Made by a program: the position numbers and the translations under genes
NCBI RefSeq assembly: GCF_023736115.1
Contig: NZ_JAKQZC010000002.1
Coordinates: forward strand, 124,001 to 188,000
From: Salinicola avicenniae
GTDB lineage: Bacteria > Pseudomonadota > Gammaproteobacteria > Pseudomonadales > Halomonadaceae
DNA length: 64,000 bases
Reading direction: 5' to 3'
Shown: positions 2,878 to 54,444 of the stretch, in pieces
Numbering within the stretch: the stretch's first letter is position 1
How the letters are laid out: every line of letters begins with the position of its first letter
Notes under the pieces: generated by a model
Told to the model about the DNA's origin: nothing
The model's database searches: none
Seen by the model: only the letters and a program-made list of their open reading frames with translations

Positions 2878-5031
2878 TCAGGCTCTTGCCGGCGCCTCGC
2901 TGGCGACACCTTCGATCTCGCGACGAAACGGCGGCAGCGCTTCCAGCAGCGCCTTGCCGTAGCGGCGCGTCAGCACGCGTCGGTCGAGCAGCGTGATACG
3001 ACCGCTGTCGTTCTCCTTGCGGATCAGCCGCCCGCAAGCCTGCACCAGCTTGATCGACGCGTCCGGCACCGAAATGCGCATGAAGGGGTTGCCACCCTGA
3101 CTCTCGATCCACTCGGCGAGGGTCGCACCGACGGGGTCATCCGGCACCGAGAACGGCAGTCGGGTGATCACCACGTGCGTCAGATAGCGTCCGGGGAGAT
3201 CGATCCCCTCGGCAAAGCTCGCCAGACCGAAGATCAGACTCCCTTCACCGCCCTCCACCGCCGCCCGGTGACGCTCCAGCAGTGCGCGCTTGGGCAGACG
3301 CCCTTGCGCCAGCAGGCGTGACGCCCAGGGTTCGCCAAGCGCATCCGCCACACTCTTCAGCTGCTTGCGCGAGGAGAACAGCACCAGGGCAGCCTCGTCG
3401 TCCGCGAGCCCGTCGATGAACTGGACGATGGCACGGTCATGGGCCGCGGCATCGCCGGGATCGACTGCCTCGCGCGGAATACTGAGCGTGGCCCGAGAAT
3501 AGTCGAAAGGACTCGGCAGGCGCTGATAGCGATAACGATTGGCCAGTCCGGCGCGCTCCTGCAGGCGCTCGAAGCGATTGAGCGCCGTCAGGGTTGCGCT
3601 GGTCACCACTGCACCGTAGCAACTTCCCCAGAGATGTCGTGCCAAGGTCTCCGCCGCCGATACCGGACTGGCTGAATAGGTCAGCTCCGGCTCACTGCCG
3701 AACTGCTCGAATGTCAGCCACCGTGCCTGCGGCGTCTGTCCGGCGACATCCGGCGTGGCCATGGCCTGCCACAGCGCGTGGGCATCCATTGCCCGGCCAT
3801 GCAGCAGCGCCGTCAGCGGCAGCCAGGGCTCGGCCTGCTCGCGCGCCAGCCCCGTCGACTTGTCGGGATCGAGGCTTTCACGCAGGATCTCGGTCATCGT
3901 CTCCAGATCGCGGCAAAGCTCGGCGAACGGCACCAGCAACTGCTGGGCCAGGTCGACCAGCGGCTGCGGCGCACGCCCGTTGGGAAAGCGGAAATGCTGC
4001 GTCTCGCTGCCCGCGCCCTGCTCGAGCCCGGCGATCTGATGCCCAAGCGAATAGGCATCGCCGAGTCGCGGCTCAAGCGCCGCGATCCGCTCCGGAAAAC
4101 TGCTCAGCAGTCGCGCCAGGGTCGGCTGGGCGCCCAGCGCCGTATTCAACTCGGTCAGCGACTTCTTGAGCGTGCGCAGCCAACGCAGCGTCGCGTTGAT
4201 GCCGAAGCGATGATAGAAGTGATCGAGCGCCTTGTCCGGCAGGTGGTGCCCTTCGTCGAAGACATAGATGCACTCCTTGGGCGACGGCAGCACCATGCCA
4301 CCGCCCAGTGCCAGATCGGCCAGGACCAGGTCGTGATTGGCGACAACGATATCGGCCTGTTCGAGATGGCGGCGCGAGCGAAAGTAGGCACAAGCGCTGA
4401 AGTGACCGCAGCGGCGATTGGTGCACTGGCGGTGATCCACGGTCAGGCGCCGCCAGTCACGATCCTCGATCGCCACCGGCCAGCTGTCGCGATCCCCTTC
4501 CCATTCACCGGCAGCGTAGGTCTCCGCCATCTCCTGAATCAGTTGCGGAAAATCGCCACCGGCATCGGTGGCGATGGTCTGCTCGAACAGCGATAGTGTC
4601 GGGTTCGGCTCGACGCCCTCCAACGCCTGATCCAGCTTGGCCACGCAAAGATAGCGGCCGCGCCCCTTGGCCAGCGCATAGTGGAAGTCGAGTCCGCTAT
4701 GCTCCCGCAGCTTGGGCAGGTCCTGGTTCAGCACCTGCTCCTGCAGCGCCACGGTGGCGGTGGCCACGACCAGGCGCTTGCCGCGCGCCTTGGCGACCGG
4801 CAGCGCCGCCAGCAGATAGGCCAGGGTCTTGCCAGTCCCGGTGCCCGCTTCGAGCACGCAGACATGCTCGTTGGACGTTCGCCGCCCCTGGTCATCGCGT
4901 TCGATGCCGGCCAGCGTCCGTGCGATCTCGGCGATCATCAGACGCTGACCGTAGCGAGGCGTGAGATCGAGGCCTTCCAGCACGCGCCGGTAGGCCTCCT
5001 GAATCTCCTGCTTGAGCGTCTCGTCGAGCAT
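2878..5031 (-). CDS. dinG: ATP-dependent DNA helicase DinG
   Basis: Superfamily 2 helicase of the XPD/DinG iron-sulfur group, which unwinds DNA 5' to 3' and acts on R-loops, forks and G-quadruplexes. At 717 residues it is the expected length. Walker A is EAGTGTGKT at 61-69. Four cysteines at 129, 203, 208 and 214 (GRYLC, RQCTNRRCGHFSAC) are placed as the 4Fe-4S ligands of the family. The DEGH Walker B box is at 259-262, and the C-terminal motif ACGRLIR precedes the end. The ATG start gives the N-terminus typical of proteobacterial DinG. It lies in the same direction as, and just downstream of, the DEAD-box helicase gene, but a strong hairpin separates them. Confidence 0.93.
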   Translation of the reverse strand: MLDETLKQEIQEAYRRVLEGLDLTPRYGQRLMIAEIARTLAGIERDDQGRRTSNEHVCVLEAGTGTGKTLAYLLAALPVAKARGKRLVVATATVALQEQVLNQDLPKLREHSGLDFHYALAKGRGRYLCVAKLDQALEGVEPNPTLSLFEQTIATDAGGDFPQLIQEMAETYAAGEWEGDRDSWPVAIEDRDWRRLTVDHRQCTNRRCGHFSACAYFRSRRHLEQADIVVANHDLVLADLALGGGMVLPSPKECIYVFDEGHHLPDKALDHFYHRFGINATLRWLRTLKKSLTELNTALGAQPTLARLLSSFPERIAALEPRLGDAYSLGHQIAGLEQGAGSETQHFRFPNGRAPQPLVDLAQQLLVPFAELCRDLETMTEILRESLDPDKSTGLAREQAEPWLPLTALLHGRAMDAHALWQAMATPDVAGQTPQARWLTFEQFGSEPELTYSASPVSAAETLARHLWGSCYGAVVTSATLTALNRFERLQERAGLANRYRYQRLPSPFDYSRATLSIPREAVDPGDAAAHDRAIVQFIDGLADDEAALVLFSSRKQLKSVADALGEPWASRLLAQGRLPKRALLERHRAAVEGGEGSLIFGLASFAEGIDLPGRYLTHVVITRLPFSVPDDPVGATLAEWIESQGGNPFMRISVPDASIKLVQACGRLIRKENDSGRITLLDRRVLTRRYGKALLEALPPFRREIEGVASEAPARA

Positions 5032-5065
5032 GGCGTATCCGGGGGAGCATCGATCAGAGGGGAAA

Positions 5066-5090
5066 GACCGCTCGCCGGCGGCGAGCGGTC
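5066..5090 (-). terminator. Hairpin between rhlB and dinG
   Basis: Perfect 11-bp inverted repeat, 5066-5076 with 5080-5090, and a 3-base GGC loop. On the minus strand it is followed by TTTCCCC, a weak U-tract. It lies just after the helicase gene stop at 5107 and in front of the dinG start, so it may terminate or attenuate read-through. Confidence 0.55.
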
Positions 5091-5106
5091 GACATGACCA
5101 TGTCGG

Positions 5107-6396
5107 TCACGGCATCAGCGATTCGGGCGGATGCTCGCAGGGGAGCTTGTCCTGGATGTAGTTCTCGATCTCGGGCAGCGAAAACGCATCTTCCTCGCCG
5201 ACGAAGCTGATGGAAACGCCTTGGGCGCCAGCGCGGCCGGTACGCCCGATGCGGTGCACGTAGTCTTCCGGATCTTCCGGCAGCGTGAAGTTGACGACAT
5301 GGCTGACATCTTCGATGTGAATGCCACGACCGGCAACGTCAGTTGCCACGAGAACGGTCACCTCACCCGCCCGGAACTGCTCCAGGGTCTGGATACGCTG
5401 ATTCTGCGGCACGTCACCGGACAGCATGGCGACATTGATACCGGCCTCACGCAGCAGCTGATCCAGCTCACGTACCAGATCACGTCGGTTGCCGAACACG
5501 ATCACGCGCTCCATCGACTCCTGCTTGAGCAGATTGACCAGCAGCTGACGCTTTTCGCTGTCGCTGATCAGGTAGACACGCTGATCGATGTTGGCCGCAT
5601 TCTCGGTGGTCACCTCGATCTCGACGTGTGCGGGATCGACCGTCCACTGTTCCGCCAGATTGAGAATGTCCGGCGTGAACGTCGCGGAGAACAGGAACGT
5701 CTGACGCTCCTCGCGCTTGGGCGTGTAGCGAATGATGCGCTTGACGTCCGGGATAAAGCCCATCGAGAGCATGCGATCCGCTTCGTCCAGCACCAGCACT
5801 TCTACCTGAGACAGGTCGATATCGCGCTTCTGCTGGAAGTCGAGCAGACGTCCCGGCGTCGCGACCAAGATATCCAGATTCTTGACCAGCTCGCTGCGCT
5901 GCTTCTGGTAGTCCATGCCGCCGACCACACTCGCCACGTTGAGCGAGGAGAAGCGCGCCAGCGCCTTGGCATCCTTCTCGATCTGCAGCGCCAGCTCGCG
6001 CGTCGGCGCCACGATCAGCGCGCGCGGCGTGCCCGGCTTCTGGCCATCCGGCGCTTCCTCTTCGAGGAAGTAGGCCAGCATCGAAATCAGGAAGGCAGCG
6101 GTCTTGCCGGTGCCGGTCTGCGCCTTGCCGACCACGTCGCCACCGAGCAGCGTATGCATCAATGCTTCCGCTTGAATCGGCGTGCAGTATTCGAAGCCTT
6201 CCGCCTGAATCGCCCGCATCAGCGGCAGCGGAAGATCGAAATCGTGAAAACGCCAGCGTCCGGCAACAGGCTCGACCTGGAACTGTTTCAGCGACCAGTT
6301 GGAAGCGTTTCGCGACTGCGATTTACGTGGCTTGCGTCGACGCCGCTTGGGTCTGCGGTTCTGTGCCGGGGCCTGGGTGTTGTCAGACTCACTCAT
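5107..6396 (-). CDS. rhlB: DEAD-box RNA helicase, RhlB type
   Basis: ATP-dependent RNA helicase; RhlB is the RNase E partner of the RNA degradosome. With the ATG at 6396 the protein has 429 residues. A basic N-terminal stretch ([16 protein letters not shown]) comes first. Then come the Q motif ([12 protein letters not shown]), Walker A AQTGTGKT at about 92-99, PTRELA, TPGR, DEAD at about 204-207, SAT, and the C-terminal motifs [12 protein letters not shown] and [14 protein letters not shown] at 6447 in the same frame would add 17 non-conserved hydrophobic residues, so I prefer the ATG. Unlike some RhlB proteins it lacks a long C-terminal tail. RhlE or SrmB assignment is possible but fits less well. 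Confidence 0.85.
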
Positions 6397-6700
6397 AATG
6401 ATGACGAATGTCCGAATTCGATTGACGATGAGGCTCGCGACGATCACGTCGGGCCCTAGACGGCGCCGCCCGGTCGCGTGACCGAGCCAGGCCCCGCAGG
6501 GCGAGAGCCGGCGCTATTGTACCAGCCCAGCGCGTCAACGTCGCGAGCCCCGTGTGTCAGGTTGGGAGCGCGGCCCGGGTGAATCGGGGAGCCATGCCAG
6601 CCGTAGAGGCGATGGCAGTCCGGCGACGGGCTGGTAGAATGACGTTTTGATGATCGCCCCCGCGGATGCCCCGTATCCGCGTCCACGCCATAGGTCGCGC
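6397..6700. promoter_or_regulatory. Divergent promoter region between rhlB and the small basic protein
   Basis: 304 bases without a supported gene. On the minus strand an extended -10 element, TGG followed by TACAAT (plus-strand ATTGTA at 6516-6521), points toward rhlB. On the plus strand another extended -10 element, TGG TAGAAT at 6632-6640, points toward the small basic gene. Neither has a good -35 hexamer at the usual distance, which extended -10 promoters can tolerate. The pairing of two such elements facing outward is what makes them believable. Confidence 0.5.
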
Positions 6701-6937
6701 ATGACTCGCAGAAAGAAGACTCGGTCGCTGGCCGACAAAGTGACGATACGAACCGGCAAGCGCAAGGACTATCGCCGCTGGCGCCATGACAATCCCGATG
6801 AAGTGAGCCCGTCCCGCCGCTACGTCGACAAGAAGACCCGGCAACGCCAGCAGCAGGCCGAGCGCAAGCGGCAGCGTCAGAGCGCGCCTGCCCTACCGCT
6901 GCATGCCCAGCCTTCTGGCGATAAGGATACCGAGTGA
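6701..6937 (+). CDS. Small, very basic hypothetical protein coupled to xthA
   Basis: 78-residue protein I do not recognise. It begins [19 protein letters not shown] and is rich in Arg, Lys and Gln, with a likely basic helix near residues 35-60 ([20 protein letters not shown]). There is no signal peptide, membrane segment or cysteine, so a nucleic-acid- or ribosome-binding role is conceivable but only inference. The chosen ATG is followed at once by a basic stretch; an upstream in-frame ATG at 6647 lies too near the putative promoter. Its TGA stop overlaps the xthA ATG by one base (TGATG), implying translational coupling. Confidence 0.6.
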
Positions 6938-22160: not shown

Positions 22161-23806
<1,646 letters not shown>

Positions 23807-47012: not shown

Positions 47013-47543
47013 ATGTCTCGTCGATGGTTACAACGCTACATTCCCAGCCAGGAGAGGCTGCAGCGGACTCGCTCGTTGCGCTTCATGCACCACATGCTGG
47101 GCGACCCCACCCTGTGGATGCTATCCCGGCGTAGCGTCGCCAACGCCTGTATGGTCGGCCTGTTTGCCGCCATGCTGCCGATTCCCGGACAAATGCTGGT
47201 CGCCGCCTTCGGCGCCTACTGCCTGCGCGGCAACCTGCCGCTGTCGGTCAGCCTGGTGTGGCTGACGAATCCGCTCACCATGCCGGTCGTGTTCTACTTC
47301 AACTATCGCGTCGGGGCCTGGCTACTGGATACTCCGGCACGCGCGGTACCGGATCACATCACGACTGCCTGGATCGCGGAGAAGATGGCAGACATCGTCG
47401 TCCCGCTTTTCGTCGGCTCGTTCGCCGTGGGCCTTGCGCTCGCCATTACCAGCAACCTGCTCATTCGCGTCATCTGGCGCTGGCAGGTCTCCCGCAGCTG
47501 GCGACGTCGCGCACGACGTCGCGCACGACGCCAGCACTCCTGA
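47013..47543 (+). CDS. DUF2062 membrane protein
   Basis: 176-residue protein with the DUF2062 domain. It starts MSRRWLQRYIPSQERLQ and has the family core HHMLGDPTLWMLSRRSVANACMVGLFAAMLPIPGQM. Three or four membrane segments lie between about 48 and 150. The tail is very basic (RRRARRRARRQHS), partly from a 12-base tandem repeat. It lies next to comEC and lolD; PA2983 neighbourhood equivalents are known but the function is not. The ATG has only a weak ribosome site. Confidence 0.85.
   Translation: MSRRWLQRYIPSQERLQRTRSLRFMHHMLGDPTLWMLSRRSVANACMVGLFAAMLPIPGQMLVAAFGAYCLRGNLPLSVSLVWLTNPLTMPVVFYFNYRVGAWLLDTPARAVPDHITTAWIAEKMADIVVPLFVGSFAVGLALAITSNLLIRVIWRWQVSRSWRRRARRRARRQHS
47502..47530 (+). repeat. 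12-base tandem repeat at the DUF2062 gene end
   Basis: Two copies of CGACGTCGCGCA (47502-47513, 47514-47525) and a partial third, encoding the Arg-rich tail. Confidence 0.85.
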
Positions 47544-51033: not shown

Positions 51034-51933
51034 ATGTCCAAAACACTGAAGGTAGGCCTGGTCCAGCAGTCGGCCTGGCCCGAGAAAACGCGAAGTCTCG
51101 AAGCCAGCGAGGCCGGCATACGCGAATTGGCCGGGCGCGGCGCTGAACTGGTGCTGCTGCAGGAACTGCACGCCACCCACTATTTCTGCCAGAGCGAGGA
51201 CGCCGAGCTTTTCGACCTCGCCGAGCCCCTGGATGGCCCGACGTCGCAGACTCTGGCCGCACTCGCCCGCGAACTCGACATCGTCATCGTCGGCTCGATC
51301 TTCGAGCGTCGCGCACCCGGCCTCTACCACAACACCGCCGTGGTCATGGACCGGGGCCGGGGGCGGGTCGGCCACTATCGCAAGATGCATATTCCCGACG
51401 ACCCGGGTTTCTACGAAAAATTCTATTTCACGCCTGGCGACGGTGATGCCGGTCAGGGGTTCGAGCCGATCGACACCTCGGTCGGACGTCTCGGCGTGCT
51501 GGTGTGCTGGGACCAGTGGTACCCGGAGGCCGCCCGCCTGATGGCGCTGGCCGGCGCCGAACTGCTGCTCTACCCGACCGCCATCGGCTGGCATCCGCCC
51601 GACGACCAGCCGGAGAAACAACGCCAGAAGGATGCCTGGACGCTGATTCAGCGCGCCCATGGCGTTGCCAATGGCCTACCGGTGATCGTCGCCAACCGCG
51701 TGGGTCACGAGCCGGATCTTTCCGGCGTCGGCGAGGGAATCGATTTCTGGGGCGGCAGCTTTATCTGTGGGCCGCAGGGCGAGTTTCTGGCGCATGCCGG
51801 TGAATCGTCCGAGAACCTGCTGGTCGAGCTGGACCTGACGCGTAGCGAGCAGGTTCGTCGCATGTGGCCCTACCTCCGCGATCGTCGCGTCGACGCCTAC
51901 GGCGACCTGACCCGACGCTACCGCGACCGCTGA
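51034..51933 (+). CDS. aguB: N-carbamoylputrescine amidase
   Basis: Nitrilase-family amidase that releases putrescine, CO2 and ammonia. It has 299 residues. The Glu-Lys-Cys triad is visible: LLQELHATHYFCQ, YRKMHIPDDPGFYEKFYF and LVCWDQWYPEAARLMALAGA. HGVANGLPVIVANRVG and FWGGSFICGPQGEFLA are also conserved. The ATG has AAGGAGA. Together with aguA it gives arginine-derived putrescine once agmatine is made elsewhere. Confidence 0.96.
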   Translation: MSKTLKVGLVQQSAWPEKTRSLEASEAGIRELAGRGAELVLLQELHATHYFCQSEDAELFDLAEPLDGPTSQTLAALARELDIVIVGSIFERRAPGLYHNTAVVMDRGRGRVGHYRKMHIPDDPGFYEKFYFTPGDGDAGQGFEPIDTSVGRLGVLVCWDQWYPEAARLMALAGAELLLYPTAIGWHPPDDQPEKQRQKDAWTLIQRAHGVANGLPVIVANRVGHEPDLSGVGEGIDFWGGSFICGPQGEFLAHAGESSENLLVELDLTRSEQVRRMWPYLRDRRVDAYGDLTRRYRDR

Positions 51934-51942
51934 CATCGCCAA

Positions 51943-51961
51943 GGCCGGCTCGTCGCCGGCC
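51943..51961 (+). terminator. Hairpin after aguB
   Basis: 7-bp stem, 51943-51949 with 51955-51961, and a 5-base loop, then GTTCTG. Weak; it may only attenuate read-through into the downstream gene. Confidence 0.4.
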
Positions 51962-51990
51962 GTTCTGACGCCTGCCGCATCTGCGTGTTA

Positions 51991-52019
51991 TTGCCTGGCC
52001 ATCAAGATAACGGTATAAA
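51991..52019 (+). promoter_or_regulatory. Promoter of the tus-like gene with flanking inverted GTTAT/ATAAC
   Basis: TTGCCT at 51991-51996 and TATAAA at 52014-52019, spacer 17 bases. The start should be near 52026. An inverted pair GTTATT...GATAAC overlaps the -35 and spacer (51986-52011). A partial match to the Tus-binding Ter core (TGTTATTGC) covers 51985-51993. In E. coli a Ter site overlaps the tus promoter and gives autorepression. Confidence 0.6.
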
Positions 52020-52043
52020 ATACGGCGCACGCAAGGAGACGAC

Positions 52044-52991
52044 ATGGAACTGCAATACCGCCTGCTGGCCGAGCTGGAAGCGGACTTCGATCGCCTGATC
52101 GAGGCCGTCGATGGCCTGGCTTCCCGTTTCGCGGCGGCGCCGACGTCTGCCTGGGCCCTGGGCGGCGCCACGGTGGACGCCGAGTGGCTACGCCGCGCCC
52201 TGACCGATTTCTGGTATCAGGATGGACAGGATGGCCGCGAGACCCGCAACTATATCGGTCTGATTGTCGCCGATGAAACACTGATGGCCGGCGTTCACCG
52301 CGTCAACGCCAGCAAGGCCCGTTTCGCCGCCACGCTGAAGCGAATTCGCGAATCGGCACCGAAACTGATCCCCGAGATCAAGGCAGTCTTACCCTTTCGC
52401 CACCCCGGGCTTCATGACCACCTTCGGGGTCAAGGACTGGCGAGGCTGCATCTGAAACAGTGCTGGCGCCAACTACCGGTGGCCGATGCACCGCTGTCAC
52501 GCGTGCGGCTGGCCTGGTACACCAGCGGCCGCTCGATCAAGCGGCTCAGCGTGGCCGACGCCGAAGCACGGCTGCAGCAGATGGATATCGCTGCCACCCA
52601 TATCCAGCTACAGCTGCGCCAGCTGGGCAACGTACCCGATGGCGAGCCGCTGGCACAGGTTCAGCAGCAGGCGCCGGTCATGCGCGCCAACCTCTTCTTT
52701 CGCGAAGCGCTGGAAGACGGTCGTCTGCGCCGCGCCATGAACCTGCCGCTCCCCCTGTTCATCCCCGCCCCGTCCGGCCGGCTCCCCCATCTCAATGATC
52801 CGCCGACCCACCCTCCGGCGACGCGAACCCGCGCCCGGCGGGCCGACCAGCGTCTCGAGGACGAGCCATTCCTGCCCAGCTTGCGCGTCTATCGCTATCG
52901 CAACCCGTCACTACAGCTTGCCGAAGAGCGCGAGAAGCGAAAACGACAGGACGCAGCCGGCGGATCAGCCACACAGATACCGGAAGAATAA
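52044..52991 (+). CDS. tus: Tus-family DNA replication terminus site-binding protein
   Basis: Would bind Ter sites and stop replication forks from one side. The 315 residues are close to E. coli Tus in length (309). By eye the alignment covers the start (YRLLAELEADFDRLIEAVDGL), the region around residue 150 where RVRLAWYTSGRSIKRL pairs with E. coli LRFGWANKHIIKNL, and the end SLRVYRYR, which pairs with PRLHLYVAD. The C-terminal 30 residues are extra and basic. AAGGAG precedes the ATG. It follows aguAB with its own promoter. The assignment rests on remembered sequence, not on a search. Confidence 0.8.
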   Translation: MELQYRLLAELEADFDRLIEAVDGLASRFAAAPTSAWALGGATVDAEWLRRALTDFWYQDGQDGRETRNYIGLIVADETLMAGVHRVNASKARFAATLKRIRESAPKLIPEIKAVLPFRHPGLHDHLRGQGLARLHLKQCWRQLPVADAPLSRVRLAWYTSGRSIKRLSVADAEARLQQMDIAATHIQLQLRQLGNVPDGEPLAQVQQQAPVMRANLFFREALEDGRLRRAMNLPLPLFIPAPSGRLPHLNDPPTHPPATRTRARRADQRLEDEPFLPSLRVYRYRNPSLQLAEEREKRKRQDAAGGSATQIPEE

Positions 52992-52996
52992 CGTAA

Positions 52997-53022
52997 GACG
53001 CCCGGTCACAAGACCGGGCGTC
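52997..53022. terminator. Terminator between tus and sthA
   Basis: 11-bp perfect stem, 52997-53007 with 53012-53022, and a 4-base loop. It lies between convergent genes. On the minus strand it is followed by TTACGTTATT, better for sthA than for tus. Confidence 0.7.
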
Positions 53023-53052
53023 GAGACAGCAGCCAGCCAATGACGATAGCGC

Positions 53053-54444
53053 TTAGAACAATCGGTTGAGCCCGTTCTGTGCGGCCACGCGATAGGCCTC
53101 GGCCATGGTGGGGTAGTTGAAGGTCGTGTTGATGAAGTAGCGCAGGCTGTTGGCCTCGCCTTTCTGCTGCATGATCGCCTGCCCGATATGCACGATTTCG
53201 GAGGCCTGATCACCGAAACAGTGGATGCCGAGAATCTCGAGCGTCTCGCGGTGAAAGAGAATCTTGAGCATGCCGGCGGTGTCGCCGGTGATCTGTGCGC
53301 GAGCGGTATCCTTGAAGAAAGCCTGAGCCACCTCGTAAGGCACCTTCGACTCGGTCAGCTCACGCTCGGTCCGGCCTACCGAGCTGATTTCGGGAATCGT
53401 GTAGATGCCAGTCGGAATATCCTCGACCAAGCGAAACTCTTCGCCCAGGAACTCATCGCTGGCACTACGCCCCTGGTCGTAGGCGGCGCTGGCCAGACTG
53501 GGCCAGCCGATGACGTCACCGACCGCATAGATATGTGGAATGTCGGTCCGGTAATGATCGTCGACCTGCAACTGACCGCGGCCATTGGCCTGAAGGCCGA
53601 TGGTCTCCAGCCCCAGCTCGTCGGTGTTGCCCGTGCGCCCGTTGGCCCACAGAAAGGCGTCGGCGCGCAGCCGTTTGCCCGACTGCAGGTTGACCACCAC
53701 GCCGGACTCGTCACCCTCGACGCTGCTGTAGGATTCGTTGTGCCGAATCAGTACGCCGTTGTTGCGCAGCTCGTAGGAGAGTGCATCGCTGATCTCGTCG
53801 TCGAGAAACGACAGCAGGCGCTCGCGCGTGTCGATCAGGTCGACCTTGACGCCCAGCCCGGAAAAGATCGAGGCATACTCGGAGCCGATCACGCCGGCAC
53901 CGTAGATGATCAGGGTGCGCGGTGTATGCGAGAGCCCGAGAATGGTGTCGGAACAGTAGATGCGCGGGTGACGGAAGTTCACGTCCGCCGGGCGATAGGG
54001 CCGCGAGCCAGTCGCCACCACGAACTGCTGGGCAATCAGCTCCTCAGCACCCTCATGATTGTCGCGAACCACGACCGTGTGCTCGTCGCGGAATCGCGCC
54101 ACGCCGAAGAACAGATCGATGCGGTTGCGGGCATAGAACTGCGTGCGCAGCTCGACCTGCTGATCGATCGTGACCCGGGAACGCTCGAGCACGCGCGGAA
54201 AGGAGAACCAGCGCGGCTCGCCGATATCGCGGAACATGCGGTTGGTGTTGAACTGCATGATCTGCTTGACCTGATGGCGCAGCGCCTTGGAAGGGATCGT
54301 GCCCCAATGGGTGCAATTACCCCCGACCGCTGACTGCTTCTCGATGATCGCCACGCGCTTGCCGTGCTTCGCCGCGTTGATCGCCGCGCTCTCACCTGCG
54401 GGCCCCGAGCCGATGACCACGACGTCGTAGTTGTGAACTGCCAT
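53053..54444 (-). CDS. sthA: Soluble pyridine nucleotide transhydrogenase
   Basis: Flavoprotein that interconverts NADPH and NADH. It has 463 residues. The FAD-binding [22 protein letters not shown] is at the start. The [16 protein letters not shown] stretch has only one cysteine, the hallmark that separates it from other disulfide oxidoreductases. [26 protein letters not shown] is the NAD motif, [21 protein letters not shown] the second FAD contact, and [19 protein letters not shown] the dimer domain. The ATG follows GGAGACAG. Lies upstream of tus in convergent orientation. Confidence 0.96.

Follow-up and report, generated by a model that had tools for sequence, protein, structure and literature searches.

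A divergent Tus protein with its own candidate Ter sequence: a probable polar fork trap around dif in Halomonadaceae

Here, we analyzed a stretch of 64,000 nucleotides from Salinicola avicenniae (contig NZ_JAKQZC010000002.1, positions 124,001 to 188,000; hereafter the window), which corresponds to G000:C4:124001-188000 in a draft assembly of 11 contigs totalling 4.03 Mb and encodes a distant relative of the replication terminator protein Tus. This divergent Tus very probably runs a Ter-based one-way fork trap around the dif site. A preliminary description of the same DNA had raised the idea of a polar fork trap with a Ter sequence of its own, and the comparison of related genomes supports it with a AAGATAACGGTATAAA-type motif that is polar and clustered around dif. 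The central elements in the window are as follows.

52044-52991, plus strand: gene of a divergent Tus-like protein of 315 amino acids, taken from the list of open reading frames
52004-52019, plus strand: candidate Ter site AAGATAACGGTATAAA, ending 24 bp before the start codon of the Tus-like gene
52008-52018, plus strand: exact core TAACGGTATAA of the candidate Ter site, inside the 16-mer AAGATAACGGTATAAA

The feature had previously been given as 51982-52991; the gene holds its place within this interval, whose earlier start covers the upstream region.

The exact 11-mer TAACGGTATAA was sought in 16 gene-bearing genomes (G000 in 11 contigs, G379 in two and the remaining 14 in one each) and in seven further genomes or records, one of them being S. 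tamaricis again. The dif site was located by pattern, and the six genomes in which this pattern was not found (G041, G353, G379, G539, G491 and G446) stand outside the following count. Both dif and sites were present in 12 genomes, namely G000, G005, G013 (S. tamaricis), G026, G027, G029, G031, G518, G479, H. beimenensis NTU-111, H. socia CKY01 and Modicisalibacter tunisiensis LIT2; 11 of these belong to the Halomonadaceae and G479 to another family. All 75 sites on the dif-bearing contigs of these genomes read away from dif, with minus-strand sites at coordinates below dif and plus-strand sites above it. Each genome carries 3-11 exact sites at a median distance of 72 kb from dif (maximum 725 kb); the share of sites no further from dif than a tenth of the half-genome is 69%, and it rises to 89% at a fifth. 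The innermost pair encloses dif; its two sites are 61-117 kb apart in the 11 Halomonadaceae genomes and 331 kb apart in G479. An enriched polar motif near the terminus, as expected for such a trap, is clearly present. For the window genome, six of eight sites entered the count; the other two, including the site in the window, are on contig C4 and cannot be placed against dif because dif is located on contig C7.

The genomes without a located dif show a similar order: G041, G353 and G379 have five, two and eight sites, respectively, and in each genome every minus-strand site lies below every plus-strand site. G539 and G446 have no exact site and G491 has one, while in G530 dif was found and an exact site was not. 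As a control, the reversed pattern occurs 0-2 times per Halomonadaceae genome of the 16-genome set and 0, 0, 0 and 3 times in four named genomes of the further set (the 3 in G568); outside this family, some genomes contain it as often as the motif itself (11 in G379). Conservation extends beyond the searched letters. Among 51 aligned Halomonadaceae sites, A, A and G stand ahead of the core in 36, 44 and 47, then A in 43, and an A directly follows the fixed 11-mer in 37. Furthermore, 40 of 73 sites are intergenic (the G491 site excluded), compared with ~9% expected, since ~91% of the surroundings count as open reading frame under a simple greedy rule.

The position of the Tus-like gene fits into the same picture. 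In 9/9 genomes its transcription runs away from dif, at a distance of 81-360 kb, and coordinates give the same direction for H. beimenensis (~209 kb), H. socia (302 kb) and M. tunisiensis (432 kb). GC skew in 10-kb bins of G005 is positive in 16/16 bins left of dif and negative in 15/16 from dif onwards. In the window it is negative in 32/32 bins, which is as expected of an arm with plus-strand sites reading away from dif.

Next, we looked at the co-occurrence of gene and sites. A search with the window protein recovered a relative in 17/17 genomes of the same genus, in 18/19 of the same family and in 5/21 sharing the order only; its best 12 named matches are all from Salinicola. The one family member without the gene, G020, has a single site ~683 kb from dif. 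A profile search across 244 genomes drawn evenly from the order recovered a relative in 49 (it missed G043, where the single-sequence search had found one) and divided the set into 35 genomes with a close relative (E < 1e-45), 14 with a divergent relative and 195 with none. Mean numbers of exact sites in these three classes are 5.83, 2.64 and 1.10, with reversed-pattern controls of 2.54, 4.21 and 3.01. At least two sites, and more than in the control, were found in 28/35 genomes with a close relative, 2/14 with a divergent one and 9/195 without the gene (Mann-Whitney test of 35 versus 195 genomes, control subtracted, p = 8e-15). Besides that, the locus G031:C1:3012206-3013062 (L030, L127) gave a Tus-like match that is divided between two frames close to the 3' end (residues 2-279 in one, 256-288 in the other), which is either a broken copy or an assembly error.

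The site in front of the gene is itself conserved. Within the window, AAGATAACGGTATAAA is the sole match at up to three mismatches (0.05 expected). In the upstream sequences of 80 relatives the conserved block GATAACGGTATAA stands out, and TAACGGTATA occurs at most 110 bp upstream of the start codon in 41 of them, including 16/16 of L031-L046. At Halomonas beimenensis (L075, ~4789-6855) the Tus-like gene has no upstream site and lies outside the site cluster, behind genes that by eye we take to be coaE- and yacG-like. At this and other Halomonas loci that lack the site, where the gene follows genes of this kind, self-repression may have been lost.

Several details of the upstream region had been read differently before. 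The promoter was said to overlap a partial Ter-like core and an inverted GTTAT pair. In shuffle tests the former does not significantly resemble TerB of E. coli in either orientation (p 0.33 and 0.74), and short TerB matches seen by eye in both orientations were dismissed after these shuffles. The letters of the pair are present (GTTAT at 51987-51991, ATAAC at 52007-52011), but the left half is not conserved: GTTAT is found in the 35 bp preceding TAACGGTATA in only 1/41 site-bearing relatives (L072), and we therefore reject the pair as incidental. A sigma-70 scan of 51900-53100 returned no promoter match, so that the term promoter refers to position only. The motif is AAGATAACGGTATAAA and not a version of GTTGTAAC. 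Two GTTGTAAC octamers do lie at 23134-23141 and 47027-47034, as described; their number, previously put at chance level, is slightly above it (2 versus 0.27 expected from shuffles, with 2/100 shuffles reaching 2), and they show no sign of function.

The genes flanking the Tus-like gene are ordinary ones:

51034-51933: carbon-nitrogen hydrolase gene, upstream neighbour
53053-54444: pyridine nucleotide-disulphide oxidoreductase gene, downstream neighbour

The kinship of the window protein to Tus is real but remote. Its predicted structure has the Tus fold across 251 residues, with ~15% identity by structure, and an hhalign profile-profile comparison with Tus gave 98.8% over 259 columns. Judged by this predicted fold over most of the protein and by the profile-profile kinship, the window protein is a homologue in the Tus superfamily. 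Thus, the proposal of a Tus relative outside Enterobacterales is borne out, and the likeness does run along the length of the protein, although routes using sequence only (Pfam, NCBIfam, phmmer and hmmsearch) came back empty. NCBIfam and a phmmer search of PDB sequences had no match for the window protein, a 32-sequence family profile gave a single chance-level match in PDB sequences that was not Tus (hmmsearch, E 0.87), PADLOC and PHROGs returned nothing, and the phage collection held no record with a relative at E <= 1e-3. With no PF05472 score above the curated cut-off, the window protein is not filed as a member of that family; the fold and profile-profile evidence overrules this missing match to the Tus profile itself. 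In a mixed alignment of 24 members, 15 touch PF05472 at E <= 1, at most 11 of those being classical or otherwise bridging. Bridging Tus-like proteins with weak and partial PF05472 matches were also observed in gammaproteobacteria (L112-L117).

The comparison with known systems shows likeness in architecture and divergence in sequence. As in the Tus-Ter system of Enterobacterales, a protein of Tus fold is accompanied by asymmetric sites that are oppositely oriented on either side of dif. E. coli carries a Ter site, TerB, directly before tus, just as the window carries AAGATAACGGTATAAA before its gene, and E. coli tus also reads away from dif. In contrast to E. coli, however, the window protein lies below the reach of PF05472, the Ter sequence is unrelated, the apparent counterparts of the lock residues are not kept throughout the window family and the Halomonadaceae gene lies 81-360 kb from dif. 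The narrow innermost pair resembles the enterobacterial type I traps described by Toft et al. 2021 (PMC8707476), with 56 kb in Edwardsiella. Plasmid or 'mobile' Tus proteins (IncC, pAQU2, Pseudoalteromonas) share the fold family and are included in profile A2, which matches the window family; unlike the window gene, they are plasmid-borne or erratically placed. Three of them group with E. coli Tus, apart from the clade of the window protein, in a tree of 24 sequences whose long branches make deep joins unsafe and which serves as illustration only. RTP-Ter of Bacillus subtilis, as outlined in PMC6549158 and PMC10331603, performs the same task with an unrelated protein.

By analogy with E. coli, the divergent Tus would bind the asymmetric Ter sites (AAGATAACGGTATAAA) and halt forks arriving from one side. 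With sites directed away from dif on either arm, incoming forks from the origin would be let through, and forks beyond the terminus would be stopped. Origin-derived forks would cross the outer sites from the permissive side and meet near dif, and a fork running past the terminus would encounter the protein on the other, presumably non-permissive, face of a site and stop there. In addition, the site directly before the gene makes it probable that the protein represses its own gene, like E. coli Tus at TerB. Taken together, we regard this as a real and probably functional fork trap that pairs a divergent Tus with a Ter sequence of its own.

A number of observations weigh against this interpretation. 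Neither the window protein nor anything else in the window genome matches PF05472 in the Pfam scan. The pocket that locks C6 in E. coli Tus comprises F140, H144 and G149 (table in PMC10331603). hhalign sets H124 of the window protein opposite H144 and G129 opposite G149, while MAFFT aligns the stretch differently, and the counterparts of H144 and G149, in a region where alignment methods disagree, are kept in just 27/32 and 26/32 family members. None of eight shuffle comparisons of the new sites with TerB was significant (p 0.21-0.94). Three of the 35 genomes with a close relative (G506, G539 and G340) have fewer than two exact sites, the 14 genomes with divergent relatives are not enriched over their control, and the 9/195 gene-less genomes mentioned above do have sites. 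Moreover, genomes of one clade are not independent, and the nominal p of 5e-23 for the polarity overstates the evidence because of this shared ancestry; site spacings do differ between genera despite it. Finally, 39 of the 80 relatives have no site just upstream of the gene.

This last observation could also suit a different, rather unlikely explanation, in which some other system (segregation, nucleoid organisation or FtsK guidance) uses the polar motif as its mark of the terminus. The Tus-like protein would then act as a regulator or be a bystander, and its gene would carry a copy of the motif by chance. KOPS and matS are indeed other polar or terminus-enriched motifs of bacteria. Yet 3-11 sites per genome are far below the count expected of KOPS, the sites track the gene across the order and sit upstream of it in the other 41 relatives, and the fold of the protein is that of a known terminator. 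KOPS is also named in PMC10331603. It is even less likely, and in our view very improbable, that protein and sites are relics of a once-working trap in a lineage where forks are no longer arrested. Inactivation of tus in E. coli has no strong laboratory phenotype, according to PMC6549158, the G031 gene match is split over two frames, and the Halomonas plasmid W02 has a gene copy and no exact site. Against a relic, the exact sites hold their orientation and their place near dif across Halomonadaceae genera whose proteins are 47-83% identical to that of the window, 11/11 sites in G031 are still correctly oriented, and sites lie between open reading frames far more often than expected. It is hardly credible at all that strand composition or chance repeats near the terminus produced the polarity. 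Strand asymmetry exists, as the uniformly negative skew of the window illustrates, and chance copies of AT-rich 11-mers are common where genomes of the order are richer in AT (control counts up to 14). But composition does not place the sites near dif, the reversed pattern is rare in Halomonadaceae, and the conservation of AAG before and A after the core continues past the letters searched.

Members of the same family are also found on plasmids. Two copies on Halomonas plasmids are 53% and 50% identical to the window protein and are publicly annotated as 'DNA replication terminus site-binding protein', so that the family name is not new. They differ from the window gene in being plasmid-borne, and their annotation brings neither a Ter sequence nor a chromosomal trap; two exact sites lie on one of the plasmids and none on the other, W02. 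On NZ_CP130702.1 (plasmid of Halomonas sp. I5-271120, L257), which holds a Tus-like gene at 196208-197068, the exact sites are at 214007-214017 (minus strand) and 214438-214448 (plus strand), ~430 bp apart. Both have the longer form AGGTTAACGGTATAATAGAG and lie between genes, amid many short CAG/CTG-like repeats, with no annotated replication gene in the vicinity. With polarity as on the chromosomes, this pair would delimit a very narrow terminus; should the stretch instead be an origin, a chromosome-like polarity would be contradicted. Large plasmids of Vibrio, Pseudomonas, Marinobacter, Azotobacter and others (H44-H70) encode relatives that are 22-30% identical and mostly annotated as hypothetical; these could be plasmid terminators.

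A further variant was seen in a divergent clade, f16; G051, of the genus of this clade, encodes a protein with 29% identity to the window protein.

L258-L261 (clade f16; G491, G530, G446, G470): shared upstream element TTGATAACGnnTTATTAAGTG before a divergent Tus-like gene

The upstream regions of all four f16 loci read have TTGATAACG and TTATTAAGTG in common, and TTGATAACGnnTTATTAAGTG retains GATAACG with the rest altered. A loose genome scan for the element gave as many control matches as matches to the element. A stricter pattern, picked after this result had been seen, gave 0-3 sites per genome, with one minus-strand and one plus-strand site in trap order in both G446 and G491. The element is suggestive of a second Ter code; with site numbers too few, we regard it as a lead and not a result.

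In previous work, resident tus genes appear narrowly distributed. The PF05472 survey by Galli et al. 2019 (PMC6549158) places them in Enterobacterales, Pseudoalteromonas and Aeromonadales only and proposes their domestication from plasmids; a 2023 review (PMC10331603) repeats the narrow distribution and considers that perhaps most species have no trap. Our literature search, with most subscription papers and preprints outside its scope, found no text combining Halomonas with Tus and 'replication termination' or with 'replication terminus site-binding', and PF05472 was found only in Galli et al. (PMC6549158). The letters TAACGGTATAA were likewise not found, and the surrounding 16-mer is new to the literature covered. 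Among the matches listed by a broad search, neither 'Tus protein' nor 'replication termin' appeared. A single paper, on the Azotobacter chroococcum genome (PMC4465626), has 'terminus site-binding protein' together with Marinobacter. Relative to the literature and public annotation searched, the Ter sequence and the chromosomal trap were found in none of these sources.

What sets the family apart is that it lies below the reach of PF05472 and yet shows the strict polarity due of a trap. It is quite conceivable, if somewhat short of probable, that Halomonadaceae and several neighbouring families operate chromosomal traps with an old, largely vertically transmitted branch of Tus, and that the Ter codes, GATAACGGTATAA here, GATAACGnnTTATTAAG before the gene in the divergent clade and the GTTGTAAC type in enterobacteria, changed along with the protein. 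If true, fork traps would be much more widespread than believed so far, the view of Tus as a recent domestication from plasmids in only three clades would not hold, and the Tus lock may function without the histidine pocket of E. coli. As a second natural Tus whose DNA code differs, the family would provide material on what the lock needs and on how protein and site change together. It would also bear on why some lineages keep a trap and on whether Tus arose once and early.
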